Source: Undaria pinnatifida | Lineage: Eukaryota > Sar > Phaeophyceae > Laminariales > Alariaceae | Length of the DNA stretch: 64,000 nt | Assembly (NCBI GenBank): GCA_012845835.1 | Contig: JABAKD010000025.1 | Coordinates: 2,303,653-2,367,652, forward strand | Reading direction: 5' to 3' | Notes under the pieces: model-generated | What the model was told of the DNA's origin: nothing | What the model saw: only the letters and a program-made list of their open reading frames with translations | The model's database searches: none | Position numbers and translations under genes: made by a program | Part shown: positions 3,822-64,000 of the stretch, one piece after another | How positions within the stretch are numbered: position 1 is the first letter of the stretch | Layout: the number at the start of each line of letters is the position of its first letter

Positions 3822-6800
3822 AAAGCTCAACAGAACCGACGCAACGAACAAAGGCGACTTCGACGCGCGAGGAGGAACGAAACACTCAATTGTCGCAGAA
3901 ATTCACGTGATGGAAGGAGCGGCGAGGGCGCCCGTCCAACATCAACAGACGTGCGTAGTCCTAACGTGTCCACCTCCATATCTCAGTTCTGGGAATTACC
4001 CCCGCTTCGTCCAAAAGACAACGAAGGACAAAGAGCATTTACGCTGGATGCGCGGAACGAAATCATCAACACCGCACAACGGGCTGCCAACATCATCGTT
4101 GATATTGCTTCACCATGCGAACACTGCGGTGCTCAGTTGTTCAAAGGTGAGTTTTTCAACATTTCATTTCGGGTCTTTCTTCCATTGCTACTTCCTGGCA
4201 TATATCCATGAAACTGTCAAATTCAATCTCTCCTCACGCCGATCATTTATTATCGTCTGTTCCTATAAGACATAGACAACAACTAACTATAGTAGATGAC
4301 ATGTCAACCACCTGTGCTTCTACAGGTGAATCTCGTGGCATTTGCTGCAGTAACGGACAACTGGTCTTGCCACCACTACCACCGCCACCAAGAGAGTTCG
4401 TCCCACTTTATGAAGGGAACGCGGAACGATTTCAAAGATTCCGTCGAATGGATCGCAAATATAACTCATGCTCGAACTTCTGCGCTATGTGCGTCGAAGA
4501 CGGAGAGTTAAAGAAGATGTTTGGGCCTCATTTCCTGTCCGTTCAAGGAAGGTGAGACGTTTAGTCTACACACGGGAATTCACTAATGATTTTTTGTTTA
4601 TTACTCCAGCACAATTTTGCAAGAAATGTGTATGGACTGCGATCCGTGTCCTTACATATCGCGACTACCACTCGATCATACCAACAGGTGTGCACATGAC
4701 ACTTTCTACTGCGAGATCTGTTCGTGCATCCTTATATTTGTTACGCGCAGGACATATCATAACACTCGCAAGAGCGATCACAGCAACATACAATGCAATG
4801 GCTACTGCACGACCCGGCGTACACCTCCGAAGACATCGACGATACAGTGTTGCGAAGACTGTTGAAGGGACTGCGATCCGTTTCCCCTTACATATCGCGA
4901 CTACGACGCGCTCATAGCAACAGGTGTGACTATGACCCTTTCTACTGCGAAATGACACCTACATCTACCTGCTATGCTACCAGCCTATACCATGCTCTAC
5001 TGCCCTGCAACCAACTATATTCTCGCTGTTACTTAAACTATTATGTATCGCGTGCTATTATGTATCGCGTGTTTATTCGTTATACACAGACGCAGACACG
5101 ACACGGTGTCTTTCTCCACACCCATGGATCCGACTCGAGAGATGATTTCCGTCGACACGCGAAGTCGTGGCGTTCTTCCACAAGACCGCAAATCGATGAC
5201 CATCGCACTCACCGGAGACAAGGAATACTTGCATTGCCGTGACCAAGACTACTTTCCCTTAACATTTCCTTTATTGTTGCCCCACGGGAAAGATTGCGGA
5301 TGGCACCCTGACCTCGTGAGCACTACCGGAAGAAAAATCACAATGCTTCAGTGGGTTACACAGTTGTTGCTCACCGAGTCACGCTTTCAAAGACTAGGCC
5401 CCGTCGTCAACGAATTTCTCATCGACGTCTTCAGCTGCATCGAGGATGAACGCCTCGCCTTCCACGCTAACAACCAAGATAAATATACTTCGTCCCTACA
5501 CAACAACGCATCTGGGTAACATCGTCTTCCGCGCCACGTCATCAACGGAACAACATCAACAAACCATTGCATCAAACCCGCATCCTGCACCAGCGGCTTC
5601 GCACATAAAGCGAAAAAAGCGACGGAGGGTATGACCATCCTCCGTCACTTGGGACCTCCGGACTACTTCATCACGATGACATGCAACAAGGTAAACCCTA
5701 TGCTGTATTTGCCTCCGTTTGCATCACCGCACAAAACAGTACATTATCTAATGTCATCCATACCAACGACTTCGTCTCCGGTAATACATGTCTTCTTGAC
5801 GTATCACTGTATGCATTCCAACCATTTACGCCCTCATACACTTATCTCCGCTTTGTGCCTCCTGCAGAACTGGCCGGAGATTGAACGAGAACTTCACCCG
5901 GGACAAACAGCTTTCGACCGACCAGCTTTATGCTCCAGAATATTCAAATTGAAGCTTGACGCGCTCATCAAGGTAACTTCATGCCCGCACTCTGTAGATC
6001 AACATCTTGCGTGGCATATCCACCATGCGCATGCAACTAATTCCCGCTGCGTGATACATATCTATATTGTTTTCTCACTCAACTCTATTGGTTTATTCCG
6101 CCAGGTCCTTCCCAAGGTTCTAGGATCCGTCGTGTACCACCTAGGTGTCATCGAATTTCAGGTGACGTTCGTCTGCATATTACCACACGTCGAAACCAAT
6201 CGCCACGTCGTTCCCTAAATCATAATCTGTCGTCTTCCATCCGGTGTACTCGAATTTCAAATGATTTAGTGTGCATAGTACGACACGTCAACCTTTACCA
6301 CATCCTACCTCCATTTTTTGTCCTACTACCTACGCATGTGCGCCCTTCACGCGTACAGAAGCGAGGTCTTCCACATGCGCACATCATCGTCAAAGGTGCG
6401 ACAATTTCCTTCCGTAAAACCCCTTTGCAAATTCTCTGTGCCGTGCATCCACAACAATCTTGCGTCCATATCAATTTGACACCACGAATAACCACAACGT
6501 ATCGGTCGCCCAACCAAAATGGATTCATCGTCAACCCCAAAATGCACCGTCAACCGTTCTTCTTGCAGTATCCGAAGAACACGCTCCGAGGACCGCCTCG
6601 CGCGTTGACGCCGTTGTCAGAGCTACATGGCCAGACCCTATCACCGAACCTGAACTGCACAACATCGTCAAAACCTTCATGACCCACAAGGACTGCAAAA
6701 AGCATAATCGTGTGTGTTACAGGGAAGGGCAATCAACGTGCTCCAAAAGGTTTCCCAAACCTCCTCAGAGCGTTACAACTTTCGACTCCAGAGGTTACCC

Positions 6801-9800
6801 GCTATACAAACGGTCCGAACAAGACTCCGACGTTGTTCCCTACAATGCCATTCTTCTACTTCTTTTCTTCGCCCACATCAACATCGAAGTGTGCACCATG
6901 GCCAACATCACCTCCTACGTATACGCGTGAGTGCTTTGATAAAATTTCATTGCAATGTGATTCCATTTCCTTTCGAATGTGTCCTACGCATCAACACTGT
7001 TTTCTCCTGACACAAACCTCTTAAATAACGGTCAACCACATTCAAGGTACATTTACAAGCCATCGGATCGTTCGGACTTCGCCATAACGGAATCACGACG
7101 CAACCACGTGGACACCATCAAAGACTGGAAATCACTCAGATTTTTGACAGCGACAGAAGCCGCATGGAAATGCATCATCAAGCAAATGCATTTCCGACAA
7201 CCATGCGCTGAAGGTAAGAATTTCATGAGGTATCGCTTATTCATTCGTCCGCACACATGTATTATTGAACTTGCACCAAACAAAATTGTCATCACACATA
7301 TCCGACCACTTTCAACAATTCAGAGCAACATGGCGTGGATGCATATCACAGACATCCGTGACTCACAACATTCACCAACAAAGTGTGCATTTCCAGGAGT
7401 GCTCTTGCACAACGAACGGGACGCTACACACGTGAGGCGTGACGTGTCAGTTCCCAAGCCCAGTTCATTAGAAAGATACTTCCACCGTCCGCTGGACATC
7501 ATCTTCGACACCATGGACATCATCACCTACCTATCGAATTTCGGCATGTCCTCCTCACCACCTGCGTACGCTGACGGTCACCACTGGGAAGAAAACGATT
7601 GGCCGAACGACAATCACGCACAGCTTGTGTACCGTCGACGAGCTACGTCCAAGGTATGCCCAATTGCGGTTTCTTATCTTTCGAATTTGCCTAACACACC
7701 TTATTCATACATCATTGTTGCTAACAACATACATTTGTCTCCCTCTCAATCTTCATCGTGCTCAGATTACGAAAGTATACTTCTTGGCTGCGCCCAAACC
7801 CACAGAAGGGGACGTGTGGTATTTATGGCTGCTGTTGAAGCGTGGAGGATGTACCCCAAGAAGCTTTCTGGAAGCAAGAACACACCGCGGCACGACATAC
7901 GAGAGTTTCAAAGACACCTGCCGTGCCCGCGGCCTTCTGGATGACCCGTTAACTCAAGAATCATCTCTGTGCTTGCAAGAAGCCATCGACAACAATGCTA
8001 CACCTCGTCAACTTCGGCGTCTCTTCATCCTGCTCGTCGTCGGTGGGAAGCCGGTTGCTGCTGCTTTCGACACATACCACACGCACATGATAGAGCCGGC
8101 ATGGATAGAGAACCACCCGAGCGAGACCGCAAGACTTTTGAAACTGTTACAATGTCTCCAACGGCATCTTCTCGCTGAAGGATGCAAAGGCGTCCAACAT
8201 CTAGGGATTAACGTACCTGAGGGATTTGTTTTGGAGGACTCCGAGCTTCAGAGAGCCCGAGTTGCTCAACTTTTGGATCATCGTGAAAAAGACGTCGACA
8301 CCGTCTTGCGTGCGTTGGCTATGTTCACGGATGAGCAGCGAGTTGTTTTCGATACCATCGTCAACGCTTGCCAATCACACGTTCGACATCAGAGGGCGTG
8401 CCGGCACGGGAAAAACGGTACTGATGAATGCCATTTCTGCCCAAGTTCGGCTTAACAATCATCTCACCGCCCCTGCTGCATCAACCGGTTTGGCATCGTT
8501 GAACCAACCTTTCGGGCTAACCTTCCATCGCACGTGGAGCATACCTGTGCCTGATCCAAGAGACGACTGCGTCGTTAATTCGAAGTTGGATACGTCACCA
8601 AGACTACACCTCATGACTGAAGTGCGACTGGCAACACTTGACGAAGCGCCTTCTCTTCATGTCGCTTCGTACGAAGCCGCATGTCGATTTTCTTCCTGCA
8701 ACGTCAACAACAACGCGTCGTCCGTTTCTCAATCCGCTACAATTCATCCGTTTAACAACGCTTGTAACATCGAACTCGAAGCAGGCCCAACCTACGAAGG
8801 TTAGTGCTTTCAATCCTTCATTACCACCAATCGTTTGCCGTCTTTATCCCGTTGACATATTCCTTAGATATATTCCCCGTCACTATACTCACCTGTGCTG
8901 CCCTCAATACCATCGCTTTCCTCTCACATTCCTTCCTGCGCTGTTGCGTGTGTTCTTCTACGTTATCCCACAGATCACCTTCACATATCCGGTCAACAAT
9001 TGGACGCAGAAGGCCCTACCTACGAAGGTCAATATTTTCAGTCCTACATTTCCACTAATCGTATACCGTATTTTTCCCGTCGGAGATATTCGTTAGAAAT
9101 ATTCCCCATCACCATCCTGACCCGTGTCGCCCTCTATACCATCGCTTTCTTCTCACACTCTTCCTGCGTTGTTGCTTGTGTTCTTCTGCGTCATTCCCAC
9201 AGATCACCTTCACATATCCGGTCAACAATTGGACGAACAACACGCATATGATTCTCCCTTCGACAACATCCACGATAGTAATGGCTCTACTCACAACGGT
9301 ATGTTGCTGGCTTTATTTTGTGTGCTCCTCTATCCTTCGAGTAATCTCTCCATTGAACACCCGGGCAATATATTTCGCTTTCATATTTCACTTTTCTCGC
9401 AGATCACGTTGACACGTGCGACCATATCCTCCATGATGAGCCGTCACGAGAGAGCGATGAAAATTCCTCCAACACCGCCCTGCCTTCAGAACAACGTAAG
9501 TGTCCGCAGCGCGCACACTTTCCACGAGTTTTCTAGCCTCACATACAATACTCCTTGCAGCCATTTTTTTAATGTCATCTTCACACTACGTATCCGTCTT
9601 TCTTTCTTTTTCCTGGACGATTTTGCAGCTATGAAAGGCAAGGTATTTCTGATGGCTGGAGACGCTCGTCACATAGGTCCCGTCGTCGAATTCGGGGGAG
9701 AAGCGGAAACATACCAAGCTTCCATCATGTCCAGCAAGTTCTACCGCGACAACGTACAAGTATTTCACCTCTCCAAAACTATGCGGAATATCGGCGATCC

Positions 9801-10605
9801 TGCCTTTTCCACAATGGTCGACCGTATTGGTGATGGCCTACTTTCTCCCGATGCTGATGGTTTAAAAGAGATTGACGGTGTTAAAACTGAAACAGATATA
9901 GACTCGTCGATCGACTACGTCTTTCCCCCCGAAGTCCTGCGGGATCCGCTCCTTTGTTCCAAGAGGGCGATTATAGCTTCTCATAACGTTACGGTGGACG
10001 ACATCAACGATCTCGTTTTGTCTAGAGTAGAGGGAGAAGTGCACGTCCTTGAAGGTAGAAGCGTTCTCGACCATGAGCATTTGGAGTGTGATCTCAATGA
10101 TGCCTTCTGCATGTCTGACCACCTCTGCACTGTTCATCATAGCGGAGTTCCTTCGCATACACTTAGACTCAAGGTTGGAATTGTCATCATGCTCACCAGA
10201 AACCTTGATATTTCGCAAGGCTTGTGCAATTCTTCAAAGCTTGTAGTGCGTGACATCTCACGATACACGTTGAGAGTGAAGACTTTGACGGATGGGATAG
10301 AACATTTCATACCACGAATAACTTTCGGGTTTATCACGAAGCAAGGTGTTGCGGTAAAACGGATCCAATTTCCCGTTAGATTGTGTTTTGCAGTTACTAT
10401 ACACAGATCCCAAGGACAAACTTTGGACAAGGTTCTCTTCGACAATAGAACGGATGTGTTCATGCATGGTTGCCTGTATGTAGCGTTGTCACGTGTCAGA
10501 GCGGCAAAGGACATACGTATTTTGGTGGAACCGTGCAGAGTGTCCGCGCGTGGCTTTGCTAGGGTCATTAACGTTGTATTCAAAACCTTACTGGCCAATG
10601 TTTAA
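3822..10605 (+). CDS. Helitron Rep/Pif1-like helicase (multi-exon, broken)
   Basis: The product would nick, transfer and unwind DNA for rolling-circle transposition in the nucleus. Recognised exons are 3822-4146 (Arg-rich, then CEHCG), 4326-4551 (CCSNGQ, LPPLPPPP), about 4784-4921 (VSPY), about 5090-5516 (YFPLTFPLLLPHGKDCGWHP, Helitron-like N domain), up to 5690 (DYFITMTCN), 5868-5972 (NWPEIERELHPGQTAFDRP), 6105-6161, 6359-6395 (KRGLPHAHIIVK, the HUH motif), 6569-6926, 7047-7213, an uncertain exon to 7653, 7766-8799, 8974-9027, 9203-9298, 9403-9495 and 9629-10605. Splicing 6926 to 7047 makes the tyrosine-rich block YVYAYIYKPSDR. The helicase part has Walker A GRAGTGKT (8394-8417), Walker B-like ATLDEAP (8631-8651), MAGDARH, SQGQT and ALSRVRAAKDIR. 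Breaks are an in-frame TAA at 5517-5519, a frame change between about 8368 and 8390, and an unresolved reading near 7324. The first exon with the start codon was not identified. Family identity is secure; exact exon ends are partly inferred. Confidence 0.85.
4630..4945 (+). repeat. 234-bp tandem duplication over a helicase exon end
   Basis: The string ACTGCGATCCGT and the following ACATATCGCGACTAC occur at about 4636 and again at 4870, and both copies continue through CAACAG|GTGTG donor-like sites (4687 and 4921). The second copy fits the expected VSPY block of the helicase. The first may be an extra exon or a spliced-out remnant. Confidence 0.7.
6141..6290 (+). repeat. Short tandem duplication of an exon end and donor
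   Basis: GGTGTCATCGAATTTCAGGTGA at the donor of exon 6105-6161 has a downstream relative with GTGTACTCGAATTTCAAATGA near 6244. Flanking strings with CATATTACCACACGTC and CATAGTACGACACGTCAACC also match. The second copy has lost the GT donor. Confidence 0.5.
8790..9240 (+). repeat. 228-bp tandem duplication creating exon-intron units
   Basis: Two consecutive units each contain ACCTACGAAG followed by a GT donor, a pyrimidine-rich intron and an acceptor leading to ATCACCTTCACATATCCGGT. Acceptors lie before 8974 and 9203, and donors after 8799 and 9027. A more diverged third acceptor-exon start (ATCACGTTGACA) is at 9403. These exons fall between the Walker B and GDARH blocks of the helicase, where related proteins have no obvious counterpart. 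Confidence 0.8.
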
Positions 10606-17700: not shown

Positions 17701-18695
17701 TCCCCATCCATCCGCCGGAGGATAAAAAATATATATATATATATATATTGAATATTATTTGTGACCTAAACCTCCTAAAAAATCTTCCCCCCCCCCCCCC
17801 CCCTCTTGCTCTCCCTTACTCAAACGCCCCACCAAATATCGAAATCCGCCACATTAATAAACAATTCACGCACAGGATATCACCTCATTATCTTTCGAGA
17901 GCCATCCATGCCGCTGTGGTTCCCCCCCCCCCCCCCCCCCCCGCCTCGAACGCCCCCTTCTTCCCCATCACCCGCACCTTCGCCTAGACCTAGCACCACA
18001 CGTATGACAAACCCCTCACCTAAAGCCCTTCCTCCCCCCCCCCCCGCCCCCCCCCCCCCCCCCGCCCCCACCCCCCACCCTCCCCCCCCAACCCATCCCA
18101 ACCCCCCCCCCTCGAACACTCCACCCTCTCTTTACTCACTGATTGTACGACTTACCCCAGGATATACACGATAAACTGATGTATTATTTCCAAAAATGTC
18201 ACATTTATCCCCTCGAAATAATGTGTAGTTTCCAGGCACATATCGAGCTGCCCCCCCCCCCCCCCCGCCCCAACCCCCCCCCCCCCCCCCCCCGCCCCCC
18301 AATAATAAACTGGTGCCAAAACCGTCAGATTTATCCCCTCGAAAGGATTTATAGCTTACATGCACAAATTACCCCTCCCCCCCCCCCCCCCCCCCCCCCG
18401 CCCCCCTCCAAACCCGCTCGCTTTTGATCAAAACCAGGCCCCCCCTTTCCCTTCACAGCTGTCAGATTTTGTCCCCCTCAGAAACGGGTTTTATAGTTTC
18501 CGCGCACAGACTGACTAAAATCATCCTGTTGACCCTGATAGCTACACTGTAGCTGTAAGGGGAGTCGCCGACCTATATCCTTAATGAGGACACACAACTC
18601 TTAATGCGCGCGATCGGAGTATCACACACAGCTTGCAAAGATGAGTTTCGACGAAATCTTCGATCTCACAGCTGGAGTGTATTTTAATTTTTATA
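17700..18695 (-). repeat. Homopolymer-rich repeat R, inverted copy
   Basis: Long C runs (about 17789-17804, 17923-17942, 18036-18063, 18250 onward, 18375-18400) are separated by conserved spacers such as CCATCCATGCCG, GATATCACCTCATTATC and CCTAGCACCACACGTATG. In reverse complement these match 48120-49350 and 57345-58540. The right part (from 18558) is the repeat A core with GGGGAGTCGCCGACCTATAT. The short Pro-rich and Gly-rich frames are artefacts of the runs. Confidence 0.8.
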
Positions 18696-25454: not shown

Positions 25455-26529
25455 TTACGAGAGCTCCGCATGAGTGCCGGCATTCGCTGGCACCCGTGCT
25501 CCGGGTAGGGCAGGGCAGCACTTCGACTTGTTCGACTCCTTATTCGGCGGAAAATAAAACCGTTACCACACAGCACATAGTCTACGCGTGTAGAATGTAA
25601 AGCAACGCCAAGATATCGATATAGACTTAACAGTGGACTACGTACTTATGCCTTTTAAAATTTCTTGCGTGAACCCGATTCCGAGCTTCATCATACTTCG
25701 ATCGGATAAATCCGAGCCGACGCAGACTGACCCTTTAGTCTGGCCACAAAGAGACGCTTCGAGTGCGTTTCTTGATGTTTTGACCCAACCAAGCATTCAA
25801 GGCCAGCAAGGGGGTGATCATGTATGCTGCATGTTCTCTACGTAGACACTGAGAGGCGTGCACTAAGCCAGCTTTTTCTACACCATGCATGATAGTTTCT
25901 AGATCCGAGGCTCGCAGGTCGACGACTGTCTGTGTATAGTCTGATCGTGCAGAGACTTGCTGACGGTATTCTAGGCGTGAAACACGGTGTCGCTTCCTTC
26001 GTCATTCACTTCCTCGAGTGAGTGCTATTACTATAGTCTAATGCTGCCACTTGTTGCTATCTGTGAGATAGTCGTAGTAGCACCCGATAGCACTGAACCA
26101 AGAATTTGGCAGTTACGAATTCAGGCTCGAGTTTTAGACGAAAATAAAAATACATCTAATACCTGGTCTGACCTATTTGTCTGATCGCTGTGGTCGCTCA
26201 TTGGCCGGGGATCATACATAAAGTAACCGTCATCTGGGAATTATAGGCTCCCATCTCAGGATCATAATCCGTCCACACATACATATACAACTCTGATAAG
26301 CCGGGAACGAACACGGATATCACCCGGATTGATAACTCCCCGCACAGTGTGGAATTAATCCCCAACCCCCTCGACCGGCCGATCTCTGATTGGCTGGAGG
26401 TCGTATGTTATGGAGCCAGCCCCACCCGGGTACAATAGGTTCCCATCTATCTCCGGTCCGGAGATCATCCTATATATTTAAACGTTAGACAAACCGCGGA
26501 AGAAAACCGAGATCTCTCGGGTCGACACG

Positions 26530-26910
26530 GTGTTAGTTATTTAGCAATACCCACTGAACCACACACTACGTGGTTCAGTGGGTGGTGCTATATAACCACG
26601 TAGTCACTACGTGGTTCAGCGGGTAGTAGTGCTATATAACCAACAAAATATATGATTTCCTTGTTTTTCCCGGAAAAAAACAGAAATATGAAGTCGGTGG
26701 GACTCAAACCCACCAGATAGCCAGTGGGTAGTTCTGTACAACCAACATGGCTCCCTCATAGTCCAATGGTTAGAATACATGACTCCCACGCATGAGACCC
26801 GGGTTCAAATTCCCGTCGAGGGAGCCATGTTGGTTATATAGAACTACTCACGGGCCCACGCAGTGACGTGACTACGTGGGCTAGTGGGTAGTGCTATATA
26901 GCTAACACAC
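26530..26910. mobile_element. tRNA-half fold-back cluster
   Basis: About 380 bp present in copy 1 of the long repeat but absent from copy 2, where CTCTCGGGTCGAC runs directly into the CCACGGTGTGGAAACCCC-type sequence (33075-33112). It contains five or six partial copies of a tRNA A-box half (CAGTGGGTAGTGCTATATAAC) in both orientations. 26550-26562 and 26570-26582 form a perfect 13-bp hairpin, extendable to 27 bp with few mismatches. The outer ends TGTTAGTTATTTAGC and GCTATATAGCTAACA are inverted repeats. Confidence 0.7.
26750..26826 (+). tRNA. tRNA-Gly(CCC)-like, probable pseudogene
   Basis: The sequence folds as a tRNA: acceptor strand CTCCCTC with GAGGGAG, D-arm with AATGGTTAGAA (A box), anticodon stem CATG/CATG around CTCCCAC with anticodon CCC at 26785-26787, and T arm GGGTTCAAATTCCC (B box). 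Defects are one additional base in the T arm, a mismatch in the D stem and one at the top of the anticodon stem. The acceptor stem continues without a break into longer inverted repeats: AACCAACATGGCTCCCTC is exactly complementary to the right side, extendable to about 30 bp with few mismatches. A functional gene is possible but unlikely. Confidence 0.6.
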
Positions 26911-27471
26911 CGCCCCTCACGGTGTGGAAACCCCAACTGCGGCTAAATTCGCTGATAGCTTCGGGCTCCCCGGCGCCGCCACACCTTGGAGGACGATGGA
27001 GCCTCACCAACCAATGGGGGGTAGTTTCGTCGCACACGGCAGGGATAGGATCCCATCCCCTGTCCAGAAATCCTCCGAATCTCTACAGCTCCAACAACGC
27101 GAGAACTATGACGATGGTCTCCCGGGTCGATACCTCCCCACACGGCATGTCAATCCCGACCCCATTGGCTTATTCGTGAGTTAAGATATTAGTGGAGTAT
27201 TAGTCCGTTTGGCCACTTGCAAAAGGTTAACAAATAGCTTACCCAAACTAAGCCTTATAACAATTGACTGGTAGGCTTCGCCCCAATAAGCTCACAATTG
27301 TATCGACCGACTCGGGTTTCTCGCGTACTTGCCTATGCGGCAGACATTTGCGATGCGAACGCAACTCGACCATCTATTTGCATGATAGCTCGCACAAAAA
27401 GATGATTTTAAGCATATGTCAGGCTGCCGCGCCGAGCAAGAACGCCCAAAAAGAGGATGAGGAAAACACTT

Positions 27472-31884: not shown

Positions 31885-34195
31885 TACAAGGGCTCCGCAT
31901 GGTTGCCGGCATTCGCCGGCAACCGTGCTCTGGGTAGGGCCGCGCAGCACTTGGACTTGTTCGATTCAATATTCGAGAGAGTAAAAACCGTTACCACACA
32001 GCACATAGTATACGCGGGTAGAACATAAAGTAATGCCAAGAAATTGATACCGGTATAGACTAACAGTGGACCCCTTGCTACTTGTGTCGTTTCCTCCGTT
32101 TCCCCGTTTCTTGCGTGAGTCCGATTCTGAGCGTCATCATATGTACATTTCGATCGGATAAATCCGAGCCCACGCAGACTGAACCTCTAGTCTGGCCACG
32201 AAGAGACGGGTTCGAGTGCGTTTCTCGACGTTTCGACTCAACCAAGTATGCAGGACCAGTAGAGGGATGGATAAATGTTTGCTGCATGTTCTCTACGTAG
32301 CAACTGACAGGCGCGCACTGAGCCAGCTTCTTCTACTACATGCATGATACCATAATATACTACGCGCGATCGGAGTATCACACACAGCTTACAAAAATGA
32401 GTTTCGACAAAATCTTCGATCTCATAGCAGTGTATTCATATTGTTTTAATATCTAGATCCGAGGCTCGCAGACCGACTGTGTCTCTGTGTGTATATCGAG
32501 TGATCGTGGAGAGACTCGTTGACTGTATTCTAGGTGTGAAACACGGTGTCGCTGCATTCGTCATTCAATTCCTCGTATGCTCTCATAATAATGCTGCTAC
32601 TTGTTGACATAGACCACTCTCGTCTGGTCGATTGAATATTAGCAGTACGCGATAGCACTCAACAAAGAATTTGGTAGTTAAGAATTGCCGGCTCGATCGA
32701 GTTTTAGACGAAAATATCAACATAAAATTCCTGGTATGGCCTTTTTGTCTGATTGCTGGTCGCTCATTGGCCGGAGATCGTACATAAAGCAACAGTCATC
32801 TGGGGAAGAGAGGGTCCATTCTCAGAATCATAATCTATTCACATATATACAACTCCGACAACCCGGAAACGAACACGGATATATCGCCAGGATTGATACC
32901 TCCCCGTACAGTGTGAAAATCCCCAATTCCACCGACCGGCCGATCTCAAATCAGCTGGGGTTCGTACATTATAGAGCCAGCTTCACCCGGAGACGATAGG
33001 GTCCCATCCCCTGTCCAGGGGTCATTCCAAATATGTAAAAGCTGGACAAACGGGGGGAGAAAACCGAGTTCTCTCGGGTCGACGCCGCCCTCCACGGTGT
33101 GGAAACCCCAGTTCCATTGGCCAGAATCGCTGATTGGTTCGAGCTCCACAGCGGCCCCCCACCATAGTAGAAAGATGACAGAGGCTCACCAACCGATGGG
33201 GGGCAGTTCCGTCGCACACGGGGGATATAGGGCCCCATCCCTGGTTCAGAAATCCTCCGAATTGCGACAGCCCCAGCAACGCGGGAACTATAACGATGAT
33301 CTCCGGGTCGATATACCTCCCCGCACGGCCTGTCAACCCCGACTCCATTGGCTTATTTCTCGTGATTGACTGATAGTGTTTGACTCAAAAAGCTCACAAT
33401 TATGTCCACCTAGTCGGGTTTTGTCGCATACTTCTCGCATACGGCGAACATTTGCAATGCGAGCGCAGGTCAATGAGGTATTTGCATGTTAGGTCGAACA
33501 AAAGAGCGATTTTGAACCTATCTGCTATATCAGGTTGACGTGCCGAGCAAGCACGCTCAAAATGAGAATGAGAAACGCTTGAACAGCAACAACAACGCCA
33601 AACGCAATATACATGGACGAATAAGAGCCATTTGAATGCAAGATTCAGGGGCCCCCGGTTATAAGCACTGTTAATTTCAAACAAAAATGGCGTATTCGAA
33701 GAAAAACGACATAATAATATGTGGAACTGAGACTGGCACGACTCGAGCATACTAGCCAACCGTGGCCGAAACAGCAGTGCATATTTGATTCACTGGCAAA
33801 ATGGTCGAATAATCATGGAATACTTGCTGCGCCCGAATAATCACCTCTTTGTCGCTTATGCGGCAATACAAAAAAACGCTGAAATTCCGATTTGATTCGC
33901 TTATTGGGTCAGAAACCTAAGCTCGCTAATATTTTTTGTCGGGTTTTTTTGCATACTACTCGCGTAGGGCAAATAATGCCATGCGACCGCAATTCGTACC
34001 AAACGCTCGACCTCGGCATGAATCTATGCAGTTGGTGCCCAGAGCGTCACGATAAAGACATTCGGGACATGAGAGCGGTCAAATCGCCATGTCCCGGCAT
34101 ACTAACAGCCCTATATATTGCCCACGGCATAGAAGAGTAATGAGCGCCTGCTTCGGCTTGACACAGGGTGATCTTGAATCGAAATAGAATACCCT
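31885..34195 (+). repeat. Long direct repeat, copy 2
   Basis: Same order of landmarks as 25455-28290. It lacks the tRNA fold-back cluster and the expanded CAA array. It contains a repeat A fragment at 32352-32440 (GCGATCGGAGTATCACACAC). Confidence 0.85.
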
Positions 34196-36194: not shown

Positions 36195-37178
36195 AGGGAC
36201 CGGGGGGGGGGGGGGGGGCAGCCCTACTGATACAACAGCTGTGTACTTCGTATATACTGTTTGTCCCGCCCGTCCCCTCCTTTTCCCCCCGATCCCTCTT
36301 GTTCAAACGTCCCACCAAATCAAAACCTTCCTGAGAGTAGTAAACACCACCAGCCAGCTGATATCATCTCATTATCTTTCTAACCATCCATACCGTAGCT
36401 CCAATTCACCCCCCCCCCCCTTTTCTTTTTGTTTTCCCGCCCTTTTGTTCAAACGCCCCACCTTCAATCGAAATCGGCCAGAGTAATGAACACTTGTACG
36501 CAATTGATATCACGTCATTATCTTGCTAGCCATCCATGGCGTAGCTTTCATCCAACCCCCCTCCCCCCCCCCCCCCAAACGCCCCCTCCTTCCCCACCAC
36601 CCGCACCATCGCCTAAACCTAGCACCACGCGTATAACAAACCCTTACATTTATTCGACTTAACGATGTTGGTTTTAAAAACCCTATCTGCCCTCCCCCCC
36701 CCTCCCCCCTTCCCACCGCCACCCCCAACCCCTCGAATGCTCTGCCCTCTCCTCACTGGTTGTACGACTTACAGGATAGGATTTGTATTTTCCACGCACA
36801 GATTGAGCTGCGCCGCCCGTCCCCCCCCCCTTCTTGATTAAACCCAGGTCACCCGCGTGCTTGAAAACTCCGCCCTCCCCTAACCGGTTATTCGACTTAC
36901 AGGATTCACTTGATAAACTGATGCATTTCGTTCCACAGCTGTCAGATTTTGTCCCCCTCAAAAACAGGTTTTACAGTTTCCGCGCACAGACTGACTAACA
37001 CCACTTGTTGACCCGGATAGCTACACCGTAGTGCCAAAGAGAGTCGCCGACCTATATCCTTAATGAGGACGCACAACCCGTAATACGCGCGATCGGACGA
37101 TCACACACGGCTTGCAAATATGAGTTTCTACAAAATCCTCGATTTCACAGCAGCTAGCTGGAGTGTATTTTCATTTTT
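36195..37178 (-). repeat. Homopolymer-rich repeat R, inverted copy
   Basis: C and G runs with the same spacers as 17700-18695 (AATCGGCCAGAGTAATGAAC, CATTATCTTGCTAGCCATCC, CCTAGCACCACGCGTATAAC), ending in repeat A (37038-37178). The TIR element follows ten bases later. Confidence 0.8.
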
Positions 37179-62059: not shown

Positions 62060-63011
62060 ATGGCCAACCCCAGACTTCAGTCTCTTGGGCATGACGCTCC
62101 CCCTTCCGCCCCTCCCCCCTTCCTCCCTTTTCCCCCTCCCCCCTCCCCCCCTCCCCCCTCCCCCCCTCCCCCAGTCCCCTCCCCGCCCCCCCCCCTTCCC
62201 CCTCCCCCCGGCCGCTTAGAGATGCCAACGGTGGATGACGCTGCCGCAGCCTCTGCGCGTCGCTCTGCAGCTTTGCGTCTCTCCGTTTCATGCCAATTCC
62301 GCATGAACAACTTGGCTCCCTCCTCTACTCTTCGAGACTATCTGCCAGCCTTCTGAGCAGCCTTTCGCCCTCCTTTGAATTTCATTTCAAAGACCGACAT
62401 ATCCTCCTTCAGATGATCCATCCAGTCTTTCTCTTGCCCCCCTGAGTAGCCCTTACCCCCAACAACTCCCCAAACATCACCCTCTGTGGCAGACGCTCCT
62501 CCCCCATGCGTGCCACGGATCCCGCAAACAAAATCCTCCGTTTGCGCACTATCACCTCAACGCTCTCGGAATCTGTCTGGGCAAGCGCGTCGGCGTACGA
62601 TAAGGTGTGGTCGTCGCGCTTCCGTTTCCGCCATCCAAGGTATCGGAGGAGCATGGAGCGGTGAACCCGTCGTAGCCTGTCATAGTCAGGCTTCTTCGGG
62701 CTCCACGTCATGCAACCGTACAGCAGTGTCTCGACCACCTCAGCTTTCAGCAACCGCACCTTCAATCGTAAAAACACACCCGGGCGATCATAGATTTCCA
62801 TCTTGTACCGCTAGAAGCACGCCCAGGCCCTCTGAAGACGCCGCGTTATTTCAGTGCTAAGGTTTCTGTCTGCGGTGATAGCCCCCCCCAAGTATACAAA
62901 CTCGATTGTTTGTTTGTAAACCTGGCCGGCTGCATTTATCGTGAAGGACACCTTCCCCCAGCTTTTGGTTTCCAGGCACATTATCTCTGTTTCCATGTAT
63001 ACGTACATCAA
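62060..63011 (-). pseudogene. LINE reverse transcriptase C-terminal remnant
   Basis: Minus-strand reading gives FVYLGGAITADRNLSTEI and RRLQRAW, an in-frame TAG at about 62814, then VVETLLYGCMTWSPKKPDYD, VHRSMLLRYLGWRKRKRDDH and a C-terminal ERDWMDHLKEDM-like block in another frame, then LFMRNWHETERRKAAERR. These are the landmarks after the polymerase active site in non-LTR retrotransposons (YLG...I, LLYG..TW, R.LG...). The catalytic palm motif is not in the window copy, so it is 5'-truncated as well as broken. Confidence 0.7.
62095..62215. repeat. CCCCCT-rich low-complexity tract
   Basis: Tandem CCCCTCC words on the plus strand. The minus strand is G-rich and could form quadruplexes. It sits inside the LINE remnant, near its 3' end. 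Confidence 0.9.
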
Positions 63012-63120
63012 GACCCGAAGAATAACTGGAGAGTACCAACGTGTTCAAAATACAAAATTTTTGGGCGCTTCTTGGTTGGACGCGGCCTTCGAACAAAGTG
63101 ATTTGAACGAGATATACTAC
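63012..63120. repeat. Fragment of repeat family B
   Basis: CATCAAGACCCGAAGAATAA and GTTCAAAATACAAAATTTTT match 31610-31690. Confidence 0.6.
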
Positions 63121-63393
63121 AGCACTGCCCACTGAGCTATACTTGATCACTTGACTCATTAGCTCAGTGGCTAGTGCTACTTCGTGCATATATATATTAT
63201 AAAAATTAAAATACACTCATATATATATGCTAAACTACCAAAATAACCATTCATGATGTCGTCAGGGCGAACGCTCGAAAAGATAAATATGAAGTCCGTA
63301 AGAATCGAACGCACAACACATAGCACTACCTACTGCTGTCACTTGACTCAGTAACACTCACTCGCATGACTCAGTAGCTTAGTGGGTAGTGTT
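63121..63393. repeat. tRNA A-box fold-backs
   Basis: AGCACTGCCCACTGAGCTA (63121-63139) and TAGCTCAGTGGCTAGTGCT (63160-63178) are inverted repeats with two mismatches. 63321-63335 and 63378-63393 form a second fold-back. A minus-strand B box, GAATCGAAC, lies at 63302-63310. The same parts occur at 26530-26910. Confidence 0.65.
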
Positions 63394-63456
63394 GGACACT
63401 GGGTGTGCTGGATGTCGACGAGTAGAAGAACGGTTTAATGTGAAGAACACACACAC
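63394..63456 (+). mobile_element. Short retroposon, most 5'-truncated copy
   Basis: GGACACTGGGTGTGCTGGAT to GAAGAACACACACAC, identical in order to the end of 13075-13177. No clear target duplication was identified. Confidence 0.7.
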
Positions 63457-63590
63457 GACATATTTAATGAGGACACACAACCCGTAATACGCGCGATCGG
63501 AGTATCACACACAGCTTGCAAAGATGAGTTTCGACAAAATATTCGTTCTCACAGCTGAATGAAGTGTATTTTGATTTTTACAATATTTAA
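63457..63590 (+). repeat. Dispersed repeat A
   Basis: AATGAGGACACACAACCCGT, GCGATCGGAGTATCACACAC and GCTTGCAAAGATGAGTTTCG match the core. Confidence 0.8.
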
Positions 63591-63649
63591 TATAGACTAT
63601 ATTCTAAACCACCATAAGAATCATTCATAATGTCGTCAGGGCGTACGCT

Positions 63650-63740
63650 TAAAAAAGACAGATATGAAGTCGGTAAGAATCGAACGCACGACACATAGCA
63701 CTACCCACTGCTGTCACTTGACTCAGTAACACTCACATGA
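63650..63740 (-). repeat. tRNA-like element, second local copy
   Basis: ATATGAAGTCGGTAAGAATC and GAACGCACGACACATAGCAC match 63288-63335 and, weakly, 26686-26710. On the minus strand this gives a B box (GTTCGATTC). Confidence 0.65.
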
Positions 63741-63924
63741 ATGGGTTATATATTATGCAAAAAAACAACCAAACATGTTTTCAGTTCGTTAATTATTTAT
63801 CACCGACTTCGTAAGAGCGATATCCGGAGCTATCCTCTCTCCACGTACAACAGTTAGTCGTACTAAGAAGAACACTAACAACTATCATAACCATTCTAAA
63901 CGTCTCCAGCGCGCACACGCCTGA

Positions 63925-64000
63925 ATACCAAACATTATCTGGATGGGAATCGTACTCACGACACATCCTTCGTTGGCTATGCTGTTAAGCACTGTACCCA
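63925..64000 (-). repeat. tRNA-like sequence cut by the window edge
   Basis: On the minus strand it reads GGGTACAGTGCTTAACAGCA, then GAGTACGATTCCCATCC, the spacing of a tRNA T arm. The start is outside the window, so gene or repeat cannot be decided. Confidence 0.4.

Follow-up and report, generated by a model that had tools for sequence, protein, structure and literature searches.

Helenus (TRIMp3) is a class of mini-LTR elements with an RNA polymerase III (Pol III) promoter. Its members carry tRNA-like LTRs, a primer-binding site (PBS) and a polypurine tract (PPT), measure 311–1263 bp and are flanked by target-site duplications (TSDs) of 4 or 5 bp, with 5 bp in fungi and plants (Kojima 2024, PMC10886601); the words ‘palindrom-’, ‘inverted’ and ‘hairpin’ are absent from its main text. 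Cassandra, also a TRIM, shares with the elements studied here a non-autonomous nature and a small-RNA promoter in the terminal repeats, but its promoter is that of 5S rRNA and its LTRs are ordinary, whereas here a tRNA is concerned (PMC10886601). Among DNA transposons, Ginger2/TDD elements have terminal inverted repeats (TIRs) of ~50–180 bp, with 260 and 297 bp in TDD-4 and TDD-5, both of which make 5-bp TSDs (PMC2836005, PMC10045372); the word tRNA is absent from PMC2836005. In HIV-1 circles, tRNA-primer sequence is documented at LTR–LTR junctions and is kept there if RNase H is defective (PMC5618025).

Our study concerns a block of inverted tRNA halves in a 64,000-nucleotide (nt) stretch of the Undaria pinnatifida genome (hereafter, the window). 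The block is genuine: it was inserted precisely and belongs to a large mobile family. Its inverted tRNA halves are almost certainly hairpin ends that form part of the structure of a small mobile element. The nearest known kind is the Pol III-promoter mini-LTR elements (Helenus/TRIMp3), with which the family shares terminal tRNA-like Pol III boxes, a 5-bp TSD, the length range and solo terminal repeats with a TSD. It differs in that the terminal repeat is a palindrome holding only the A half of the tRNA, the B half being internal, and in that the two ends are not consistently direct. Because a PBS and a PPT are also absent from ordinary copies, as judged by eye, we do not file the element as a Helenus member, although it may work like one. 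A sequence-only reading had regarded the block as belonging to no recognized class; the halves do belong to a real, non-SINE insertion with a fixed 54-nt geometry, but tRNA-like Pol III terminal-repeat elements had already been described (Helenus, TRIMp3; PMC10886601).

In the open PMC literature, covered by titles and the starts of abstracts, there was no precedent for tRNA-half palindromic termini or for a tRNA at an end–end junction. The TGTT/AACA elements of PMC5659011 were rejected as a precedent, since they concern other LTR ends. A scan of viral contigs for exact CAGTGGGTAGTGCTATATAACC gave no match.

A precise insertion with hairpin ends

The alternating orientation of A-halves (tRNA 5′ halves with the A box) that the sequence-only reading had noticed is borne out by a motif search. 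With at most 3 mismatches, CAGTGGGTAGTGCTATATAAC matches five times in the block, on both strands (26536−, 26576+, 26722+, 26833− and 26882+), compared with 0 in 100 shuffles; the sixth and last match in the window is at 63690−. Alignment of 26361–27100 with the paralogous repeat at 32901–33300 leaves a single large gap of 382 bp, in agreement with the earlier view of the block as an insertion. This gap is the sum of a 377-bp element and a 5-bp duplication, and we therefore read 26531–26907 as one insertion. The junctions are GTCGA / CACGG [TGTTAG ... CTAACA] CACCG / CCC, against GTCGA CGCCG CCC at the unoccupied site. The duplication is imperfect, and its four equal letters of five would be weak alone; the ends of the element are fixed because the gap size is exact (Table 1).

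As RNA, the 377-nt block has a folding energy of −171.7 kcal/mol (z = −11.35 versus 100 shuffles). The acceptor stem of the tRNA-like sequence indeed continues into a flanking inverted repeat, with 38-nt arms at 26720–26757 and 26818–26855 that are 89% complementary. Within the block, the core fragment is matched by nhmmer from 26719 to 26655 on the minus strand (E 5.1e-11). The hairpins also give weak Rfam matches to microRNA families, all under gathering scores, which we read as generic hairpin similarity.

Table 1 Features of the inserted element, its target site and related sequences
Feature	Position	Strand	Basis or remark
Whole element, TGTTAG...CTAACA ends, 377 bp	26531..26907		Gap versus unoccupied repeat copy
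Left target-site duplication CACGG	26526..26530		4/5 letters equal to right copy
Right target-site duplication CACCG	26908..26912		
Unoccupied target site CGCCG, paralogous repeat	33083..33087		
Left terminal palindrome: two A-halves, the first inverted, around a short centre	26531..26598		Inverted repeat 27 nt, 89%
Second A-half and partial palindrome centre, ending AACCAACA	26600..26645	+	
Core fragment: tRNA 3′ half (B-box region GGTTTGAGTCC) followed by CCGACTTCATATTTC	26646..26719	−	
A-half, ends at element terminus ...CCAACA	26720..26747	+	
tRNA module: TGGC, tRNA 26752–26824, CCA 26825–26827	26748..26827	+	Rfam match
Right terminal palindrome, 80 nt	26828..26907		
Related element, cut by window end, outside the insertion	63693..64000	−	nhmmer 109.3 bits, E 8.5e-33			

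A high-copy family with inverted ends

We searched the genome (511,146,479 bases, 68 contigs) on both strands with a 21-mer A-half motif, allowing at most 3 mismatches, and obtained 1390 + 1482 matches, compared with 10 + 10 for a control. The 94 loci fetched derive from 100 listed of the 2872 matches, 7 matches of a junction search described below and two 10-kb stretches near the window (L086 and L087) that contain no copy. The listed matches are exact copies of the motif on contigs C1, C2, C13 and C18–C27, and the sample is non-random. Geometry and final TSD counts use 88 of the 94 loci plus the window, with L006, L037, L067, L088, L090 and L091 dropped as overlaps or near-duplicates; the palindrome survey dropped L006, L037 and L067, the four-arm sets and the listing of ends dropped L006 and L037, and an earlier TSD count dropped L006.

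These 88 loci and the window hold 316 A-halves. Neighbours at most 1.5 kb apart form 108 outward, 55 inward and 65 same-strand pairs, with starts exactly 54 nt apart in 48 of the 108 outward pairs and a spacing of 246–255 nt in 24 of the 55 inward ones. The two spacings together define the typical unit as an 80-bp palindrome, a ~225-bp core and a second palindrome, and complete copies show this order, with the tRNA 3′ half and B box in the core and TG...CA at the ends. The inversions are the family's own architecture: in a search of the genome in both orientations, with spacing tabulated in the fetched loci, as the sequence-only reading had proposed, the inverted pairs recur at a set distance. 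Palindromes are exactly 80 nt long in 49 of the 83 surveyed in the fetched loci, and in these 49, 87.5% of cells pair in register, compared with 26–42% after the partner has been shifted by 1 to 3.

The A box lies in the palindrome and the B box in the core. A B box follows within 45 nt of the A-half's terminal CA, in the core, for 48 of the 316 A-halves; a rearranged T-arm is seen in 57, and the remaining 211 lack both. Just inside the termini sits the tRNA 3′ half with its B box, and in the fetched copies the core is found in either orientation with respect to the ends. Rfam searches, covering 12 of the 94 loci, show an A-half and following B-half that together match RF00005 with 36.6 bits in L039 (gathering score 29) and a match in L048 that scores 24.1 bits, under the gathering score. 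As the terminus CCAACA stands where the anticodon arm would be, with the D arm on one side and the T arm on the other, we read each end as a tRNA-like 5′ half plus its inverted copy. Scans of the genome for tRNAs may report pieces of the family as tRNA genes, as the window copy and L039 pass the Rfam gathering score.

L043:794–1320 is a nearly complete inverted self-duplication flanked by an exact 5-bp TSD, and its four arm ends carry the private letters TGTTCG/CGAACA. The composite element within 467–1407 of L084 contains GGTTCAAATCCCACATCTCCACCA, by eye like another tRNA 3′ end with CCA. In the window, relatives of the family lie at 63098–64000; their A and B boxes are less far apart (GTGGGTAGTGCTATGTGTCGTGCGTTCGATTC) than those of the main family.

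Target-site duplications and the relation of the two ends

For left and right ends 30 bp to 2.5 kb apart, 15 of 169 combinations (14 loci) are flanked by an exact 5-bp TSD, against a shuffle mean of 0.43 and maximum of 3, and the same combinations include none (0/169 each) with an exact TSD of 4 bp or 6 bp. The earlier count gave exact 5-bp TSDs in 14 of 220 pairs and four equal letters of five in 11 of 220, where we estimate ~3 by chance; in that count three further loci, L005, L044 and L084, had all five letters equal despite deviating end letters. The family consists of non-coding mobile elements in high copy number; they end in TG...CA, were inserted by a 5-bp staggered cut and have palindromic termini of tRNA 5′ halves. 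Such a stagger together with such ends is what integrase-type enzymes make.

The flanked elements span 77 to 941 bp, and several of the longer ones have at least three palindromic units and more than one core inside one TSD pair. Others comprise little beyond one palindrome: L061 (109 bp) and L026 (77 bp, inside a local duplication) have exact TSDs, and L081 (80 bp) and L032 (106 bp) have four equal letters of five.

True LTRs are expected to be direct and near-identical. In 16 flanked elements, among them the window copy with its 4/5 TSD letters, we compared the outermost 80 nt at one end with those at the other; L026 and L061, too short for two separate ends, were excluded. The direct relation is better by at least 4 points in six (L021, L053, L058, L063, L084 and L094), the inverted relation is better in four (L005, L030, L043 and L093), and the two are within 3 points in the other six. 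Fifteen two-palindrome pairs, mostly without a TSD, comprise 3 direct, 5 inverted and 7 tied cases. When arms are compared within 18 four-arm sets, all six pairings are about equally alike (means 21.3–22.5 of 26), and L038 has two quite different palindromes inside a perfect duplication. With such mixed relations, the ends follow the prediction for neither plain LTRs nor plain TIRs.

Fresh copying of one palindrome arm from the other was considered and dropped. Among the 83 palindromes, the 39 that lack the search seed share private letters 15 times, against 9.8 for shuffles, of which 5.5% reach 15. Letters at positions 15 and 66 assort independently in 49 palindromes (CG 23, CT 10, AG 10, AT 5 and CC 1). 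The arm–arm score of 11.95 versus 9.3 shuffled mixes palindromes of different lengths and is therefore unreliable.

A tRNA between two ends

The covariance model that the sequence-only reading had suggested running reports a tRNA (RF00005) at 26752–26824, with 37.5 bits against a gathering score of 29; ARAGORN, run on the window with the bacterial code, reported none. The module consists of TGGC, a 73-nt tRNA and CCA, and abuts a conserved element terminus at each end (...CCAACA before it, TGTTGG... after it). A genome-wide search for such junctions gave 2 + 5 matches, compared with 0 + 0 for the control. Of the 7, two come from the window copy and one, in L089, is another genuine case; the remaining four are ordinary left ends with a flank that fits by chance, among them L092, L093 and L094, which have exact 5-bp TSDs.

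L089 belongs to a sister family, with the A-half TGGCCTAGTGGATAGCGCTATATAACTAAC, and has the same arrangement of a tRNA between ends. Its tRNA scores 32.3 bits and shows 64 identities with the window module over 80 columns, with CTC (Glu) in the anticodon column where the window has CCC. The earlier assignment to tRNA-Gly(CCC) holds up for the tRNA likeness; the Gly identity came from the anticodon letters only, and on the CTC of this one sister copy we take both modules to be, probably, tRNA-Glu(CUC)-like copies rather than a Gly(CCC) gene. The recurrence of this arrangement in a sister family, with Glu(CUC), suggests that the tRNA and CCA between the ends are a copied reverse-transcription primer. 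As at HIV-1 circle junctions (PMC5618025), primer sequence would be lodged between two element ends; the present case differs in comprising nearly all of a tRNA, in lying in a genomic copy and in having an inverted A-half beyond the tRNA. The A-halves on either side of the window tRNA agree in 24 of 28 letters, and the 4 that differ leave recent fold-back copying unsupported at this site. CCA is mirrored by TGGC across the stem, so it could belong to an extended stem and need not be the tail of a mature tRNA.

Possible routes of copying

We give an even chance to the family being, as a whole, an LTR-retrotransposon-type retroelement that combines Pol III transcription, reverse transcription, integrase insertion and a retained primer tRNA. 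Transcription by RNA polymerase III would lead from the A box, in the middle of the palindrome, into the core, and the reverse transcriptase and integrase of an LTR retrotransposon would copy and insert the element, as has been proposed for the Pol III-driven TRIMs (TRIMp3/Helenus). The window tRNA with CCA would be a copy of the primer left where two element ends join, and cDNA folded back on the acceptor stem may have extended that stem into the flanking A-halves. This retroelement reading draws on the fixed 5-bp TSD with TG...CA ends and the precise insertion in the window, on the resemblance of the short one-palindrome copies with TSDs to solo LTRs, on the LTR-like direct relation of ends in 6/16 flanked elements, on the tRNA score of joined A- and B-halves in L039, on the two diverged families in which tRNA and CCA lie precisely between element ends, and on the primer sequence documented at HIV-1 LTR–LTR junctions (PMC5618025). 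If it is true, Pol III-driven mini-LTR elements extend to a palindromic, tRNA-half-ended form, and the window preserves, as a fossil in the genome, a primer tRNA trapped between two element ends, which would reveal the tRNA that serves for priming.

Several observations weigh against it. By eye, across 232 listed ends including flanks, no TGG-type PBS follows ordinary 5′ ends, where internal sequences begin AAA[G/T]ATATGT or close; this type occurs only at the two tRNA junctions (window and L089). Nor does a PPT precede the 3′ ends in the listed copies, as judged by eye, where the core ends ...CAAACATATATTT or similar. The inverted ends (4/16) and ties (6/16), the equal arm pairings, the core lying both ways and the rarity of tRNA-bearing junctions (7 genome matches, reducing to the window copy and L089) count against it as well. 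The same lack of PBS and PPT, together with the four elements with better inverted ends, would suit a cut-and-paste foldback MITE moved by a Ginger2/TDD-type transposase, with the tRNA halves as cargo turned terminal inverted repeats. The likeness to Ginger2/TDD would lie in TIRs, the ends here being palindromes, and, for TDD-4/TDD-5, in the 5-bp TSD (PMC2836005); the TGTNR 5′ end also fits but is common to Ginger1 and Gypsy LTRs and so is undiagnostic (PMC2836005). However, the direct end match is better in six of the flanked elements, and a transposase leaves the tRNA with CCA exactly at termini in two families unexplained. For the copying route, the LTR-retrotransposon thus stands at an even chance, and a DNA-transposase mechanism is possible at somewhat lower probability. 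We consider it rather unlikely that the elements form a group bridging TRIMs and foldback transposons, in which self-complementary tRNA-5′-half ends would be Pol III promoters, integrase ends and self-priming hairpins all in one, flip between copies and sometimes have the primer tRNA copied whole between them.

Flip-flop terminal palindromes are known from parvovirus-type ends. By analogy, the terminal palindromes here could flip by hairpin resolution during single-strand replication, with an integrase inserting the product, and both end relations in the flanked elements and the near-complete inverted duplication of L043, with its private arm ends, would fit. We judge this improbable, given that no replication gene was seen, that arms can be mixed by nested insertions, recombination and age, and that positions 15 and 66 assort independently. 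An ordinary tRNA-derived SINE with accidental inversions would share A and B boxes, small size and high copy number. LINE-driven SINE insertions have longer, variable TSDs and a 3′ tail, whereas this family has integrase-type TSDs of exactly 5 bp and palindromic TG...CA termini, which is not LINE-type insertion, and its neighbouring outward halves keep their fixed offset; we rejected chance inversions in a SINE, an outcome that the sequence-only reading had named as its own refutation, on this geometry and these TSDs, and consider it very improbable. Least probable is a genuine tRNA gene amid a degenerate tRNA array. The Rfam match over the gathering score would favour it, but the tRNA lies inside a precise insertion, ARAGORN is silent and the halves are those of a dispersed family; the 382-bp insertion gap led us to discard such an array.

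Other features of the window

An open reading frame at 9124–10605 encodes Pif1 helicase domains (PF21530, PF05970), two open reading frames upstream of it have no Pfam match, and we read 5043–10605 as a Helitron-like region. A separate repeat, TGTTATAAGGCTTAGTTTGGGTAAGC..., LTR-like by eye, lies on the minus strand at 27181–27262 and recurs in L084, L064 and L023; by eye, its copies in L084 lie within the composite element there. Long C-rich tracts occupy 17788–18435, 36548–36751 and 62095–62161, and the window holds many direct and inverted repeats longer than 100 bp.
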